Shown: piece after piece, positions 24,583 through 30,018 of the stretch | How the letters are laid out: every line of letters starts with the position of its first letter | Numbering within the stretch: position 1 is the stretch's first letter | Program-made: the position numbers and the translations under genes | Origin: an uncultured Collinsella sp. | GTDB taxonomy: Bacteria; Actinomycetota; Coriobacteriia; Coriobacteriales; Coriobacteriaceae | NCBI GenBank assembly: GCA_949287055.1 | Contig: CASEEY010000002.1 | Location: forward strand, 1-38,175 | Reading direction: 5' to 3' | Length of the DNA: 38,175 nucleotides | Notes under the pieces: model-generated | The model's input: the letters and a program-made list of their open reading frames with translations, nothing else | What the model was told of the DNA's origin: nothing | The model's database searches: none

Positions 24583-24619
24583 CGCACTAAGTCCAACCGC
24601 CATCGGAAAGGAGCAGGCC

Positions 24620-25093
24620 ATGTTGTTCAAAAACGTTATGGTCCCCTACGATGAGTCCGAGCATGCCAACAGCGCGCTGCATGCCGCATTTGGCATGGTG
24701 GGGGACAACCCCGATGCCACGGTTCACGTGGTGACGATTGTGTCGACGGGGGCGGTTCCGGTTCCCACGCTTGCCGGAGGGGCCTTCGACGACCCCTTCA
24801 ACTCCGGCAGCATGGAAGGCTACGATGCGATGATCAGCTCGATCGTCCAGCGCACGCGCAACGATATGGAGCGCGTGGTGGAGGGTGCGCGCGATGATGC
24901 CGCATGCAAGGTCGAGGTGGCCGCGATCCTTGCCGGGTCCGCCGTCGACGGCATCGCCGAGTACGTGACGTCGCACGGCATCGACCTGGTCGTCATGGGT
25001 CGCCGCGGCCTGGGCGCCCTGCGCGGCATGCTCGGCAGCGTGAGCTTCGGCGTCCTGCGCTCCGTCGACGTCCCGGTCCTCACCGTCAAATAG
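24620..25093 (+). CDS. Universal stress protein (UspA family)
   Basis: A 157-residue single Usp domain. It opens with NVMVPYDESEHANSALHAAF (strand 1 and the Asp that faces the nucleotide) and ends with the ATP-binding loop GRRGLGALRGMLGSVSFGVL, matching G-2X-G-9X-G-(S/T), so it should belong to the ATP-binding subgroup. Usp proteins accumulate on starvation or respiratory stress and usually act as small nucleotide-sensing dimers; the client is unknown. ATG 24620 follows GGAAAGGAG. The frame is open earlier, but those residues do not fit the family. The next gene is a superoxide reductase, an association consistent with stress. Confidence 0.92.
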   Translation: MLFKNVMVPYDESEHANSALHAAFGMVGDNPDATVHVVTIVSTGAVPVPTLAGGAFDDPFNSGSMEGYDAMISSIVQRTRNDMERVVEGARDDAACKVEVAAILAGSAVDGIAEYVTSHGIDLVVMGRRGLGALRGMLGSVSFGVLRSVDVPVLTVK

Positions 25094-25196: not shown

Positions 25197-25556
25197 ATGG
25201 CTATCTTTTATAAAGACGAGAACGGCACCATCCTGACGGCTTTGAGCGGCGGGTCCGTGCCCGCAGGGTTCGAGGCTATCGAGGCCAACACCGTCGACGC
25301 CGCGATCGAGAAGCACGTGCCCGCCGTCGAGCTTCAGCGTGACGGCCGCGTCATCCACGTTCAGGTGGGCGAGGTGGAGCATCCCATGGAGGAAGCGCAC
25401 TACATCGAGTGGGTTGCGCTCGAGACCGAGGACCGTCTCGAGGTCCATCACTTCAAGCCCGGGCAGAAGCCGGTGACCTTCTTCCCGGTCGTCGCGAAGT
25501 CCGGCACCGTCTATGCCTACTGCAACCTGCACGGGCTGTGGAGCGCCAAGTTCTAG
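25197..25556 (+). CDS. Superoxide reductase, class III-like (desulfoferrodoxin family)
   Basis: A 119-residue enzyme that reduces superoxide to hydrogen peroxide without releasing oxygen, typical of anaerobes. The active-site iron ligands are present: EKHVPAVE (the Glu-Lys-His triad of the catalytic loop), EHPMEEAHYIEW (two His) and YCNLHGLW (Cys and His). The first ~40 residues follow the length and layout of the desulforedoxin domain of two-iron enzymes (FYKDENGTILTALSGGS, then the ENTVDAA linker seen as EANTVDAAIEKH), but none of its four cysteines remains. That is the hallmark of class III enzymes such as the Treponema protein, which keep an empty domain. The electron donor is probably a rubredoxin encoded elsewhere. 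ATG 25197 follows AAGGAG. Confidence 0.93.
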   Translation: MAIFYKDENGTILTALSGGSVPAGFEAIEANTVDAAIEKHVPAVELQRDGRVIHVQVGEVEHPMEEAHYIEWVALETEDRLEVHHFKPGQKPVTFFPVVAKSGTVYAYCNLHGLWSAKF

Positions 25557-25579
25557 GGAGCCCGAAAAGCCGTCCGTAG

Positions 25580-25612
25580 GGAGGGTCGTCCGCTCGATGC
25601 GGGCGACCCTCC
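25580..25612 (+). terminator. Terminator after superoxide reductase gene
   Basis: GGAGGGTCGTCCGC (25580-25593) pairs with GCGGGCGACCCTCC (25599-25612), 14 positions with one T-G and a five-base loop, followed by TGTTTGCG. Confidence 0.75.
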
Positions 25613-25696
25613 TGTTTGCGCGTCTCCGTTTGCGCGCGAGGTAGGGGGCGGGAAGGGTATCATGTCTGGAAGACGAACGACCGAAGGGACGCTTTG

Positions 25697-27700
25697 ATGA
25701 AACTGGCGCTTGCGCAGATCGATATGCGCCTCGGCGACATTGAGGGCATCTGCTCCCGCATCGCCGACCAGGCGGCGCTTGCCGCCGCGGGCGGCGCGCA
25801 GCTGCTGTGCACGCCTGCGCCCCTGTTCGCGGGCGTGCAGCCCACGACGCTGATCGATTACGCCAACTACGAGCACGACCTCGTGGTGCATCTGCGCGAG
25901 CTCGCGGTGCGCGTCGAGGCCTCGCAGATCGCATGTCTCGTTCCCGCCGTCATCTCGATCGACCAGGTTCCCCTCATGGAGTGCTTCCTGATTCGCGAGG
26001 GGCGCGTGATTCCGCTGCGCGCCATGATGGCGGAGCGCCTCGGCCGCGCCGACGCCGCCTCGTGGGAGCCCGCTGTCTTCGAGGTCGCGGGTACCCGCAT
26101 CGCCGTCACCTTCGATTTCGCCCGCGATATCACCCAGGTTCCGCGCGGCTGCGACGTGCTCGTCTACTTCCAGGCAAGCGGTTTCGATGCGACCTGCGAG
26201 CAGACCAGCGCCGTTGCGTCGGTGGCCGACGGGCATTTTAGCGACGACGTCGCGCGAAGCGGGGTATGGCTCGCCTGCATGGCGCCGATCGGCGGGTTCG
26301 ACGAGACGGTCTTCACGGGCGGTTCGTTCGTGATGGACGACGGCGGCCGCGTCGTCGCCGCAGCGCCCTGCTTTGAGGAGGGCCTGCTGATCCAAGACGT
26401 GTGCCGCGGCGTGATGGCGCCGGGCATCGACCAATACGAGCTGCCCCGGTTCAACCGTGAGGAGTGGCTCTGGGAGGCTCTGCGTATCCATGTTCGCGAT
26501 ACGGTGACCGCGCGCGGCTTTGCCCGTGCCGTCGTGCCCCTCGAGGGCGATCTGCCCACCTCGTTGCTCGCCGCGCTCGCCGTCGACGCGCTGGGGTCCC
26601 GTAACGTCGTCGGCATCGAATTCGCGCGCTCCGACGTGTTTACCCCGCGCCAGGAGGCGCTTGAGTGCGACCGCGTCGAGCGGATTCGCGCACTTGCGGC
26701 AAACCTGAACATTCAGCTGGTCGAGCGCGACCAGGGTGATGTTTCGCGCTGGATGGACCGAGACGTGCCCGCGCGCGATGCGGGCCGGCTGCGCGTCGGT
26801 ATCGATGCCATCTATCTGGCCGATGTCGCCCATGAACTCGGCGCGTGCGTGCTGTCGCCCGTGACGAAGACCGATGCCGCCCTCATTCCCGAGGCGCTGC
26901 TCTCCGCCAGCACGCCTCGGACGCTCTGCGCGCCCTTTGGCGACGTGTACCTGACGGAGCTTGAGTTTTTGGCCCGGTATCGCAACCGTCGCTCGGCCGC
27001 GATTCCCCTCGAGACGGTCTCGCTGGCCGCCGTCGAGGAGCGCATGGAGGCCATCTGCTCCGCGGCGCTGTCTGCGTTCGAGGACGAGCCGGAGCGTGCC
27101 GCCGCAGCCGCCGCGCTGTTCGCCGAACTCGAGCCGGCGCAGCTCGACGGCATCATCGAGGGCCATGTCGATCGCAACGCGGTGTTGGACGACCTGCCCG
27201 CCGCGCGCAGCAACGGCGCTGCCGCTGCGCTCGTGTTGCTGCTGATTCGCCAGGGGGAGGGGTACCGCAGGTCGCTTCCCATGGCGCCGATCGTGTCGGC
27301 GCGCGCATTTCCGGAGCGTCTGTGGCCGGTGTCGCTCGGATGGTCCGACTTGGGGCGCGGGGGTGCTGCCGCCGAGCGCGTGTCCGACCTGGTCGAGGGC
27401 GAGCTCGAGCGCTTCGAGTCGCGCGGCGCAGAGTACGGCGAGCGCGTGCGGGGCGAGATCATGAACCTGCTGGGCAACCTGCTTGGGCTCACGCCCGAGC
27501 AGCAGGCCGAGCTTGCGAGCGAGGAGGGGCAGCGGCGGATGCGCGAGAGCGCCGAGCGCTTCGAGAGCCAGCTGCGCGAGGCCCTCTCGCATGCCGCCGA
27601 GGATGCGGATCATCATGAGGAAGGGCATGTGCCGGGCTTCCCGGGCTCTTCGACTTCAGGCCATGGCGGTGTCCATTTCCCGTACTTCTCCCAAAACTGA
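25697..27700 (+). CDS. NAD synthetase-like protein with lost catalytic motifs in both domains
   Basis: A 667-residue protein with the overall plan of glutamine-dependent NAD synthetase (NadE): a nitrilase-like domain (~1-260, opening MKLALAQIDMRLGDIEG) and an ATP-pyrophosphatase-like domain (~270-435). The expected active residues are missing. The nitrilase Glu motif (usually PE near LTGY) reads CTPAPLFAGV at 38-47; the Lys region reads IPLRAMMAER; the Cys region reads VTFDFARDI. The pyrophosphatase P-loop (SGGxDS) reads EGDLPTSLLAALAVDALG at 283-300, although the following helix VDALGSRNVVGIEF and the later FGDVYLTELEFLARYRN (414-430) keep the family pattern. Residues 440-667 are helical, with a His-rich end. 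The gene is intact and well codon-biased. It probably acts as a non-catalytic binding or regulatory protein. ATG 25697 follows GAAGGGA. Confidence 0.75.
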   Translation: MKLALAQIDMRLGDIEGICSRIADQAALAAAGGAQLLCTPAPLFAGVQPTTLIDYANYEHDLVVHLRELAVRVEASQIACLVPAVISIDQVPLMECFLIREGRVIPLRAMMAERLGRADAASWEPAVFEVAGTRIAVTFDFARDITQVPRGCDVLVYFQASGFDATCEQTSAVASVADGHFSDDVARSGVWLACMAPIGGFDETVFTGGSFVMDDGGRVVAAAPCFEEGLLIQDVCRGVMAPGIDQYELPRFNREEWLWEALRIHVRDTVTARGFARAVVPLEGDLPTSLLAALAVDALGSRNVVGIEFARSDVFTPRQEALECDRVERIRALAANLNIQLVERDQGDVSRWMDRDVPARDAGRLRVGIDAIYLADVAHELGACVLSPVTKTDAALIPEALLSASTPRTLCAPFGDVYLTELEFLARYRNRRSAAIPLETVSLAAVEERMEAICSAALSAFEDEPERAAAAAALFAELEPAQLDGIIEGHVDRNAVLDDLPAARSNGAAAALVLLLIRQGEGYRRSLPMAPIVSARAFPERLWPVSLGWSDLGRGGAAAERVSDLVEGELERFESRGAEYGERVRGEIMNLLGNLLGLTPEQQAELASEEGQRRMRESAERFESQLREALSHAAEDADHHEEGHVPGFPGSSTSGHGGVHFPYFSQN

Positions 27701-27794: not shown

Positions 27795-28316
27795 ATGGTC
27801 ATCCTGGGCATAGATCCCGGCCTGGCGAATACCGGATGGGGGATTGTCGAGGAGCGCGGCGGCGAGGTTCGCTGCCGTGCCTATGGATGCATTCAGACAT
27901 CCGCCGGCAGCGACCTGCCTGTCCGCCTTCGTCATATCGCCGACGATCTGACGGCGGTGGTCGAGCGCTACCGTCCCCAGGAGGCGGCGATTGAGAGCAT
28001 CTATTTCGGCGCCAACGCGCGCTCGGCCATCCCGACGGCGCATGCGCGCGGCGCGGCGCTGGTCGCTGTGTCCCTGGCGGGCGTCGAGGTGGGCGAGTAC
28101 ACGCCCATGCAGATCAAGCAGTCCGTGGTGGGCACGGGCGCGGCAGACAAAGGGCAGGTCATCTACATGGTGCGCAACCTTTTGCGCCTCGATCACGACC
28201 CGCGTCCCGACCATGCCGCCGACGCGCTTGCGTGCGCGATCTGCCATGCCCACCTGCGACGCACCGGGGCGCTGAGCGGGGGCGCGTTCGTCCAGAGGAG
28301 AGGAAACGGCTACTGA
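27795..28316 (+). CDS. ruvC: Holliday junction resolvase RuvC
   Basis: The 173-residue endonuclease that cuts Holliday junctions symmetrically, working as a dimer with RuvAB. Catalytic acidic residues are visible: D in ILGIDPGLANTGWG near the start, E in AAIESIYFGANARSA, and the paired Asp at the end (DHDPRPDHAADALACAI). Length equals the family norm. ATG 27795 lies eight bases after AGGGGG; a GTG at 27786 is possible but too close to that site. The stop shares a base with the ruvA start (TGATG), so the genes are coupled. Promoter and LexA box lie immediately upstream. Confidence 0.96.
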   Translation: MVILGIDPGLANTGWGIVEERGGEVRCRAYGCIQTSAGSDLPVRLRHIADDLTAVVERYRPQEAAIESIYFGANARSAIPTAHARGAALVAVSLAGVEVGEYTPMQIKQSVVGTGAADKGQVIYMVRNLLRLDHDPRPDHAADALACAICHAHLRRTGALSGGAFVQRRGNGY

Positions 28317-28936
28317 TGATCACCTTGCTCCATGGAACACTGGTAGAGGCCACGCCGAGTGTCGCCGTTCTCGATGTCGGCGGTGTCGGCTTCGAGGTCG
28401 GCATCTCCGGCACGACGGCCGCATCGCTCCCCGCGCTCGGGGGCGACTGCCGGCTGTTTTGCCGCCTGCAGGTGCGCGAGGACGCGATGACGCTGTTCGG
28501 GTTCTCCACCAAGGAGGAACGGACGATGTTCGATCGCCTTGTCGCCGTATCGGGCGTGGGACCGCGCCTGGCGCTCGCCGTCCTCTCCACGTTTACCGTG
28601 TCCCAGCTCTATACCGTGGTGATGGCAGATGATGATAAGGGCATGGCGAAGGTGCCCGGCGTGGGCAAGAAGACCGCCCAGCGCCTCATCCTTGAGCTGA
28701 AGAGCGTGTTCGCCAAAGACCACGGCCTGCTTGCCGCGGACGTTCCCGCTGCCGGTCAGCTTCCCCTGGCCGCAGCGCCTGCGCCCTCCGCGCTGGACGA
28801 TGCCCGCACGGCGCTGCTCTCCATGGGCTTCAGTCCGCAGGAGGCGGAGCTGGCGCTCGACGGGTATGATGGGAGCGGTATGCGCGTCGAGGAGCTGCTT
28901 GCCGCGGCGCTTAAGCGACTCGGGATGGATGCATGA
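28316..28936 (+). CDS. ruvA: Holliday junction branch migration protein RuvA
   Basis: A 206-residue DNA-binding subunit that holds the four-way junction and loads RuvB. Domain I is the OB fold ([20 protein letters not shown] and on to ~62); domain II has two helix-hairpin-helix motifs ([14 protein letters not shown] and [17 protein letters not shown]); after an Ala/Pro linker, domain III ([20 protein letters not shown]) contacts RuvB. ATG 28316 overlaps the ruvC stop by one base and its Shine-Dalgarno-like AGAGGAGAGG sits in the end of ruvC. It ends in an ATGA overlap with ruvB. Confidence 0.96.
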
Positions 28937-30018
28937 TGTGGGAAGCAGATGATTCGGTCGACCTGTGGGCGGATGCCACCCGCACGCATCGCCCCGCACC
29001 GGGTTCCGGCCACGAGACGGACCGCTTCGTCACCGGCGACCTGACCTCCGAGGACCTCGACGTCGAGCGGACGTTGCGCCCGCAGCGCTTGGATGACTAT
29101 TGCGGCCAAGATCATATCCGCCAGAGCCTGCGCATCCTGATCCAGGCGGCGCAGAGTCGTGGCGAGTGCCTCGATCACGTGATCTTCTCCGGCCCTCCGG
29201 GCCTGGGCAAGACGACGCTCGCCGCCGTTGTCGCCAACGAGATGGGCGCTCAGATCAAGACGACGTCCGGTCCGGCCATCGCGCGCACCGGCGACCTCGC
29301 CGCGATCCTTACGAACCTTCAGCCCGGCGACGTGCTCTTCATCGATGAGATCCATCGCCTCAACCGTTCGGTCGAGGAGATTCTCTATCCGGCGATGGAG
29401 GATTTCGCGCTCGACATCGTGATCGGCAAGGGTCCGGCTGCGCGCTCGATTCGCCTCGACATCCCGCGCTTCACGCTCGTGGGCGCCACGACGCGCTCGG
29501 GCATGCTCACCGGTCCTCTGCGCGACCGCTTCGGCATCTCGTTCCGCCTCGATTACTACTCCATCGAGGACCTGGCGGAGATCGTGATTCGCTCCGCGAC
29601 GATCCTGGGCGTGCAGATCGACCGCGATTCGGCGCGCGAGATCGCCTCCCGGTCCCGTGGTACGCCTCGTCTGGCCAACCGCCTGCTCAAGCGCGTGCGC
29701 GACTACGCGCAGGTGCGGGGTAGCGGCCCGATCGAATACGGCATCGCGCGCGAGGCGCTCGAGTTCTTCGAGATCGACGAGCTCGGTCTCGACTGGATGG
29801 ACATCCGCATCCTCGAGACGCTCGTCAAGACCTTCCGCGGTCGTCCTGTCGGACTCACGACGCTGGCGAGCGCAGTGGGCGAGGACCCCAACACGCTCGA
29901 GGATGTGTACGAGCCCTATCTGCTGCAGCGCGGTCTCATCGTGCGCACACCGCAGGGGCGCGTCGCGACGCCGGTGGCCTTCGATCACCTCGGTATGGAG
30001 CCGCCGACCAACGCGTAG
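28933..30018 (+). CDS. ruvB: Holliday junction branch migration ATPase RuvB
   Basis: A 361-residue AAA+ motor that drives branch migration as hexameric rings on either side of RuvA. After a variable N-terminal tail of about 40 residues comes [18 protein letters not shown], Walker [13 protein letters not shown], Walker [17 protein letters not shown], the RuvB beta-hairpin region, sensor 1 [19 protein letters not shown] with its arginine finger region, and sensor 2 [20 protein letters not shown]; a C-terminal winged helix ends with [18 protein letters not shown] 28933 overlaps the ruvA stop (ATGA); another ATG follows at 28936. A strong hairpin follows the gene. Confidence 0.97.

Follow-up and report, generated by a model that had tools for sequence, protein, structure and literature searches.

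A putative pseudoenzyme derived from NadE, with an invariant C-terminal FSxN tail, is retained in two families of Coriobacteriales

The stretch of DNA analysed here (the window) comprises 38,175 nucleotides from an uncultured Collinsella sp. and carries, at positions 25697-27700 of the + strand, an intact open reading frame, complete with its stop codon, for a 667-residue protein related to the glutamine-dependent NAD synthetases (NadE). Judged by motif loss, an open frame and selection, this protein is a fixed pseudoenzyme, and we infer that it is biochemically inactive. Its ancestor appears to be the order's own NadE, and it likely works as a non-catalytic adaptor or regulatory subunit that would dock a partner protein through its C-terminal tail, a reading to which we give a probability of roughly 60%. 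Annotation as an "NAD+ synthase" on the basis of homology would be an error.

The frame opens with an ATG at the point where the orthologues begin with a conserved MKLALAQ, and the protein is 99.6% identical to its counterpart in C. tanakaei ET30. The NCBIfam profile NF010588 (PRK13981) matches residues 1-549 (profile positions 5-542) with an E-value of 1.5e-32, so that homology spans both domains, in agreement with an earlier note on this DNA that had proposed a full-length, two-domain NadE homologue; the score of 112.7 bits lies below the curated cut-off of 479, and the equivalog threshold is thus not reached. In Pfam, CN_hydrolase is above its cut-off and NAD_synthase scores 19.9 bits against a cut-off of 21. 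A single-sequence search with the protein matches the PDB entries 3n05, 4f4h and 5kha, and a profile built from ten divergent orthologues matches 5kha with an E-value of 1.6e-57 over profile positions 2-547. By these comparisons the window protein is a genuine two-domain NadE relative whose fold may be retained, to judge by sequence profiles; AlphaFold2, run on the window protein with an alignment of six close homologues only, gave a mean pLDDT of 42 in two runs. Pfam and alignment delimit a nitrilase-like (glutaminase-like) domain (residues 1-245; 25697-26431), which is followed by an NAD-synthetase-like domain (residues 246-555; 26432-27361) defined by the NCBIfam profile and the PDB matches, and then by a C-terminal extension made of a helical segment and a variable linker (residues 556-663; 27362-27685) that leads to the terminal tetrapeptide FSQN (27686-27697), all on the + strand. 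Antisense to the gene runs an open frame of 691 codons (25553-27628, - strand), which looks like a by-product of base composition, long antisense frames being found all over the window. Around the gene, scans for promoters and terminators and a search of Rfam yielded nothing informative.

Both active sites have been erased. In an alignment with ten intact actinobacterial PRK13981 NadEs, the nitrilase Glu, Lys and Cys correspond to A41 (25817-25819), M110 (26024-26026) and D140 (26114-26116), respectively; the SGGIDS ATP loop has become E283 G284 D285 L286 P287 T288 (26543-26560), and NKSE has become TKTD (residues 390-393; 26864-26875), in which the clade-invariant Lys391 is the sole residue kept. 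The erasure of both sites had been claimed in the earlier note, whose reading of the loop as EGDLPTS has the letters right. SGGxDS is absent from all 91 copies of the dead clade that were read, namely 48 from f1, the family of the window (Collinsella and five other genera), and 43 from a second family, f5. Since the catalytic losses fall at homologous positions and are common to all these copies, they reflect neither misalignment nor sequencing error. Lost across the clade are, among others, positions 283, 285, 287, 366, 368, 370, 404, 406, 419 and 523 (window numbering), which we take, from NadE structures, to be the expected ATP, Mg or NaAD contacts; the sets of residues lost are those for ATP (S, G and D of SGGxDS), NaAD (Q, R, R and N; Y-G-D) and glutamine (E, K and C). 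Of the residues invariant in active enzymes, to which these lost positions belong, framework positions Q7, G13, G46, G199, G208, A298, G300, V304, D484, R524 and P544 are kept. A move of the catalytic residues to nearby positions, which the earlier note had named as grounds for refutation, was looked for and rejected: the residues invariant across f1 and f5 include no Cys and one Lys only, and with no Cys invariant in the clade there is no support for a nitrilase triad that has moved elsewhere.

A strain-specific or decaying gene was likewise rejected, both by distribution across genomes and by dN/dS, and with the relation to NadE established none of the three grounds for refutation given in the earlier note applies. 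The sample consisted of 199 genomes of Coriobacteriales, 50 of them from f1, 49 from f5 and 100 from elsewhere in the order (f5 is probably Atopobiaceae and f2 probably Eggerthellaceae). A clade-profile search found an open-frame dead copy in 50/50 genomes of f1 and in 48/49 of f5, the copies of the two families being just 24-33% identical. The dead copy is under strong purifying selection. Its dN/dS within a set of 17 close Collinsella genomes is 0.066, compared with 0.085 for the active nadE; by region, the nitrilase-like part gives 0.047, the synthetase-like part 0.055, and the helix and linker about 0.08. Deeper pairs, which are near saturation in these Nei-Gojobori estimates, give 0.36-0.45 for the dead copy versus 0.18-0.30 for the active nadE. 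The lineage-wide keeping of the protein that had been envisaged from the window is thereby borne out. The pseudoenzyme is dispensable in some members: it is absent from genome G141, which belongs to genus g87 of f5, and reduced in that genus (L173, L174), the active NadE being present in both cases; here nature has supplied a knock-out that could help to sift candidate partners.

The neighbours are those recognized in the earlier note. A superoxide reductase (SOR) of the desulfoferrodoxin family (25197-25556, + strand) lies upstream and ruvC, ruvA and ruvB (27795-30018, + strand) lie downstream. SOR precedes the gene at every f1 locus and at 32/40 newly read f5 loci; ruvC follows it at 39/40 f5 loci and wherever an f1 locus has a flank that is long enough. 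This order may reflect a functional link or an inherited gene arrangement. Upstream of SOR, the window also has a universal stress protein gene (24614-25093). By tblastn this gene turns up in the closest relatives of the window, but at most of the other Collinsella loci read it does not adjoin SOR.

The erosion proceeded in two steps. The 21 synthetase-intact copies read from other families of the order keep SGG[IL]DS and NKSE and have no nitrilase Glu and Cys. Indeed, a degenerate nitrilase domain is seen in all synthetase-intact Coriobacteriales NadEs read (L049-L063, L175-L183), a two-domain NadE devoid of glutaminase residues being the norm outside f1 and f5 among these copies, and genome G226 has two of them (L181, L182). 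Set against the 21 copies, the residue patterns of f1 and f5 indicate that the glutaminase was lost first, order-wide, and the synthetase later, in the lineage of f1 and f5. The tree agrees with this sequence of events: f1 and f5 together are monophyletic (support 0.988), lie nested within the NadE clade of the order beside the synthetase-intact f3 copy and join f3 (L049, L058) and the long-branched f8 sequence L063 at a node with support 1.0, and all Coriobacteriales NadEs group together (0.967). In the f3 genome G046 (L058/L185 and L186, on contigs C50 and C60; L188), LAGDLDSS and CDKTARAL are read at the synthetase motifs and the tail is PLFSKN; the genome carries a separate NH3-type NadE with SGGKDSS. 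With the fragments at two contig ends taken as one gene, G046 seems to have lost its synthetase site in a second, independent event, in which the FSKN tail was likewise kept and another NadE took over.

Neither the earlier loss of the glutaminase site nor the tail had been picked up in the earlier note; among the new features of the protein, the tail is under the tightest constraint. F-S-x-N stands at the very C-terminus of 47/47 complete f1 copies (L035, cut by a contig end, was left out of this count) and of 43/43 f5 copies, and it is invariant in both families behind a linker that varies in length and sequence. The synonymous codons used for F and S differ between close genomes, and thus the constraint acts on the protein. 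L049, a synthetase-intact copy of f3, ends in IFSKN and has SOR 99 bp upstream, in a genome without a PRK02628-type NadE; since a synthetase-intact copy beside SOR already bears the tail, the tail predates the loss of catalysis. Asn is also the last residue of the eight synthetase-intact f6 copies that were read, most of which have a hydrophobic residue at -4 or -3. A role of FSxN as a general sorting signal was rejected, as FSxN followed by a stop codon is as frequent in six genomes as the reversed-pattern control and so at chance level; the other FSQN-stop in the window's own genome (L199) ends no reading frame of at least 60 amino acids in the ORF listing.

In the explanation that we favour, Coriobacteriales as a whole first lost the glutaminase site and were left with a synthetase that presumably worked on ammonia; the lineage of f1 and f5, where a complete glutamine-dependent NadE of the PRK02628 type is also present, then lost the synthetase site and kept the protein. 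These two steps can be read from the sequences, and the third would be that retention is due to a second, non-enzymatic job that existed beforehand. The two folded domains would form an inert body bearing the helix, a flexible linker and the F-S-x-N docking peptide, and the first places to look for a partner would be redox/NAD homeostasis, with SOR adjoining, or RuvCAB-linked repair. This adaptor function is favoured by the loss of catalytic and substrate residues in 91/91 copies, by purifying selection, by an invariant tail behind a variable linker and by the keeping of the tail in the apparent second loss of G046. Against it, invariance persists at Lys391 and at a few residues of the loops, which may mean that the protein binds some ligand or has acquired a novel chemistry. 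The dispensability in some members also speaks against it, as does the chance that adjacency to ruvCAB is merely inherited order, and the support from G046 depends on two contig ends belonging to one gene.

It is unlikely that the protein tunes NAD production as a dedicated regulator of the active NadE or as its partner in a mixed oligomer. The intact enzyme that the earlier note had supposed elsewhere in the genome does exist: at G000:C84 (L001/L088) there is a complete PRK02628-type NadE (827 bits) with LPEL, Lys, CED and SGGLDS intact. Enzymes of this type score over the cut-off in 50/50 f1 genomes, 49/49 f5 genomes and 2/100 other genomes of the order (G159 and G160, in neither of which the clade profile finds a copy), and the dead copy is always accompanied by one, in 98/98 sampled f1 and f5 genomes that carry it. 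A dissociable protein partner controlling NadE is also known, in the form of PII (PMC7196632). However, the two genes lie far apart or on different contigs, the dead copy falls within PRK13981 and not within the PRK02628 branch that assembly would need, and G046 kept its dead copy alongside a different active NadE. In particular, L049 bears the tail in a genome without the PRK02628 enzyme, so that regulation of the active NadE is not favoured.

That other residues give the protein a novel enzymatic activity is quite unlikely. K391, D416, R429 and R524 are nearly invariant in f1 and f5, and in the ATP loop about 80% retain the second Gly and the final Ser, but the invariant residues offer no Cys and only one Lys, and the positions that once contacted Mg, ATP and NaAD change without restraint, inside each family as well as from one family to the other, which a shared active site in that pocket would forbid. 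A sensor that binds ATP, NaAD, NAD or glutamine without turnover could draw on the fold, retained by profile, and on some kept loop residues; it is very unlikely, given that the residues holding ATP, NaAD and glutamine have gone along with the catalytic ones, a loss that also weakens the binding of NAD, NaAD or glutamine suggested in the earlier note and makes NadE-like ligand binding by the window protein improbable. A redundant copy drifting towards loss, as its reduction or loss in part of g87 might suggest, is hardly credible and is contradicted by the selection data, with the frame open in all f1 copies at a dN/dS of 0.066, the tail invariant and the gene persisting across two families at only 24-33% identity.

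Starting from the non-catalytic adaptor, a more specific history can be put forward tentatively: NadE might have been moonlighting before catalysis was lost, with FSxN-COOH as an undescribed docking peptide for a conserved partner, and takeover by two different NadEs might have left the adaptor function alone. If true, this would be a new non-enzymatic regulator in two bacterial families, built from an essential enzyme. In two whole families an essential enzyme has turned into a pseudoenzyme that is fixed and under strong selection, which represents a natural experiment on moonlighting. The intermediate states are readable in living genomes (the protein first without a glutaminase site, then accompanied by a second NadE, finally without a synthetase site and still retained), and the invariant four-residue C-terminus is a simple handle for a partner search.

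Among known systems, the PRK13981/NadE2-type glutamine-dependent NadEs (3n05, 4f4h, 5kha) share with the window protein their domain order, core length, framework residues and descent, whereas the window protein lacks the glutaminase triad, SGGxDS, GNKSE and the NaAD residues, falls far under the family cut-off and has the helix, linker and FSxN tail in addition. Its closest relatives in the tree are the NadEs of other Coriobacteriales families (for example L049, L051 and L060), which also have no glutaminase triad; one of them, L049, resembles the dead copies in lying next to SOR and in its FSKN tail. Unlike the window protein, these NadEs keep SGG[IL]DS and NKSE intact and are presumably active ammonia-dependent synthetases. 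The PRK02628 (M. tuberculosis/NadE1) type belongs to the same superfamily and is present intact in the same genome, but it forms a separate branch that, unlike the dead copy, has LPEL, Lys, CED and SGGLDS and is the working enzyme. A literature search found neither a NadE pseudoenzyme nor this gene in Coriobacteriia described, an absence that is no proof for elsewhere. Pseudoenzymes are a known kind, of which a case in the NadE family is undescribed in the literature searched, and the window protein probably has another, undescribed role; with pseudoenzymes in general (reviewed in PMC10211241) it shares the loss of catalytic motifs under continued selection and, going by sequence profiles, probably a retained fold.
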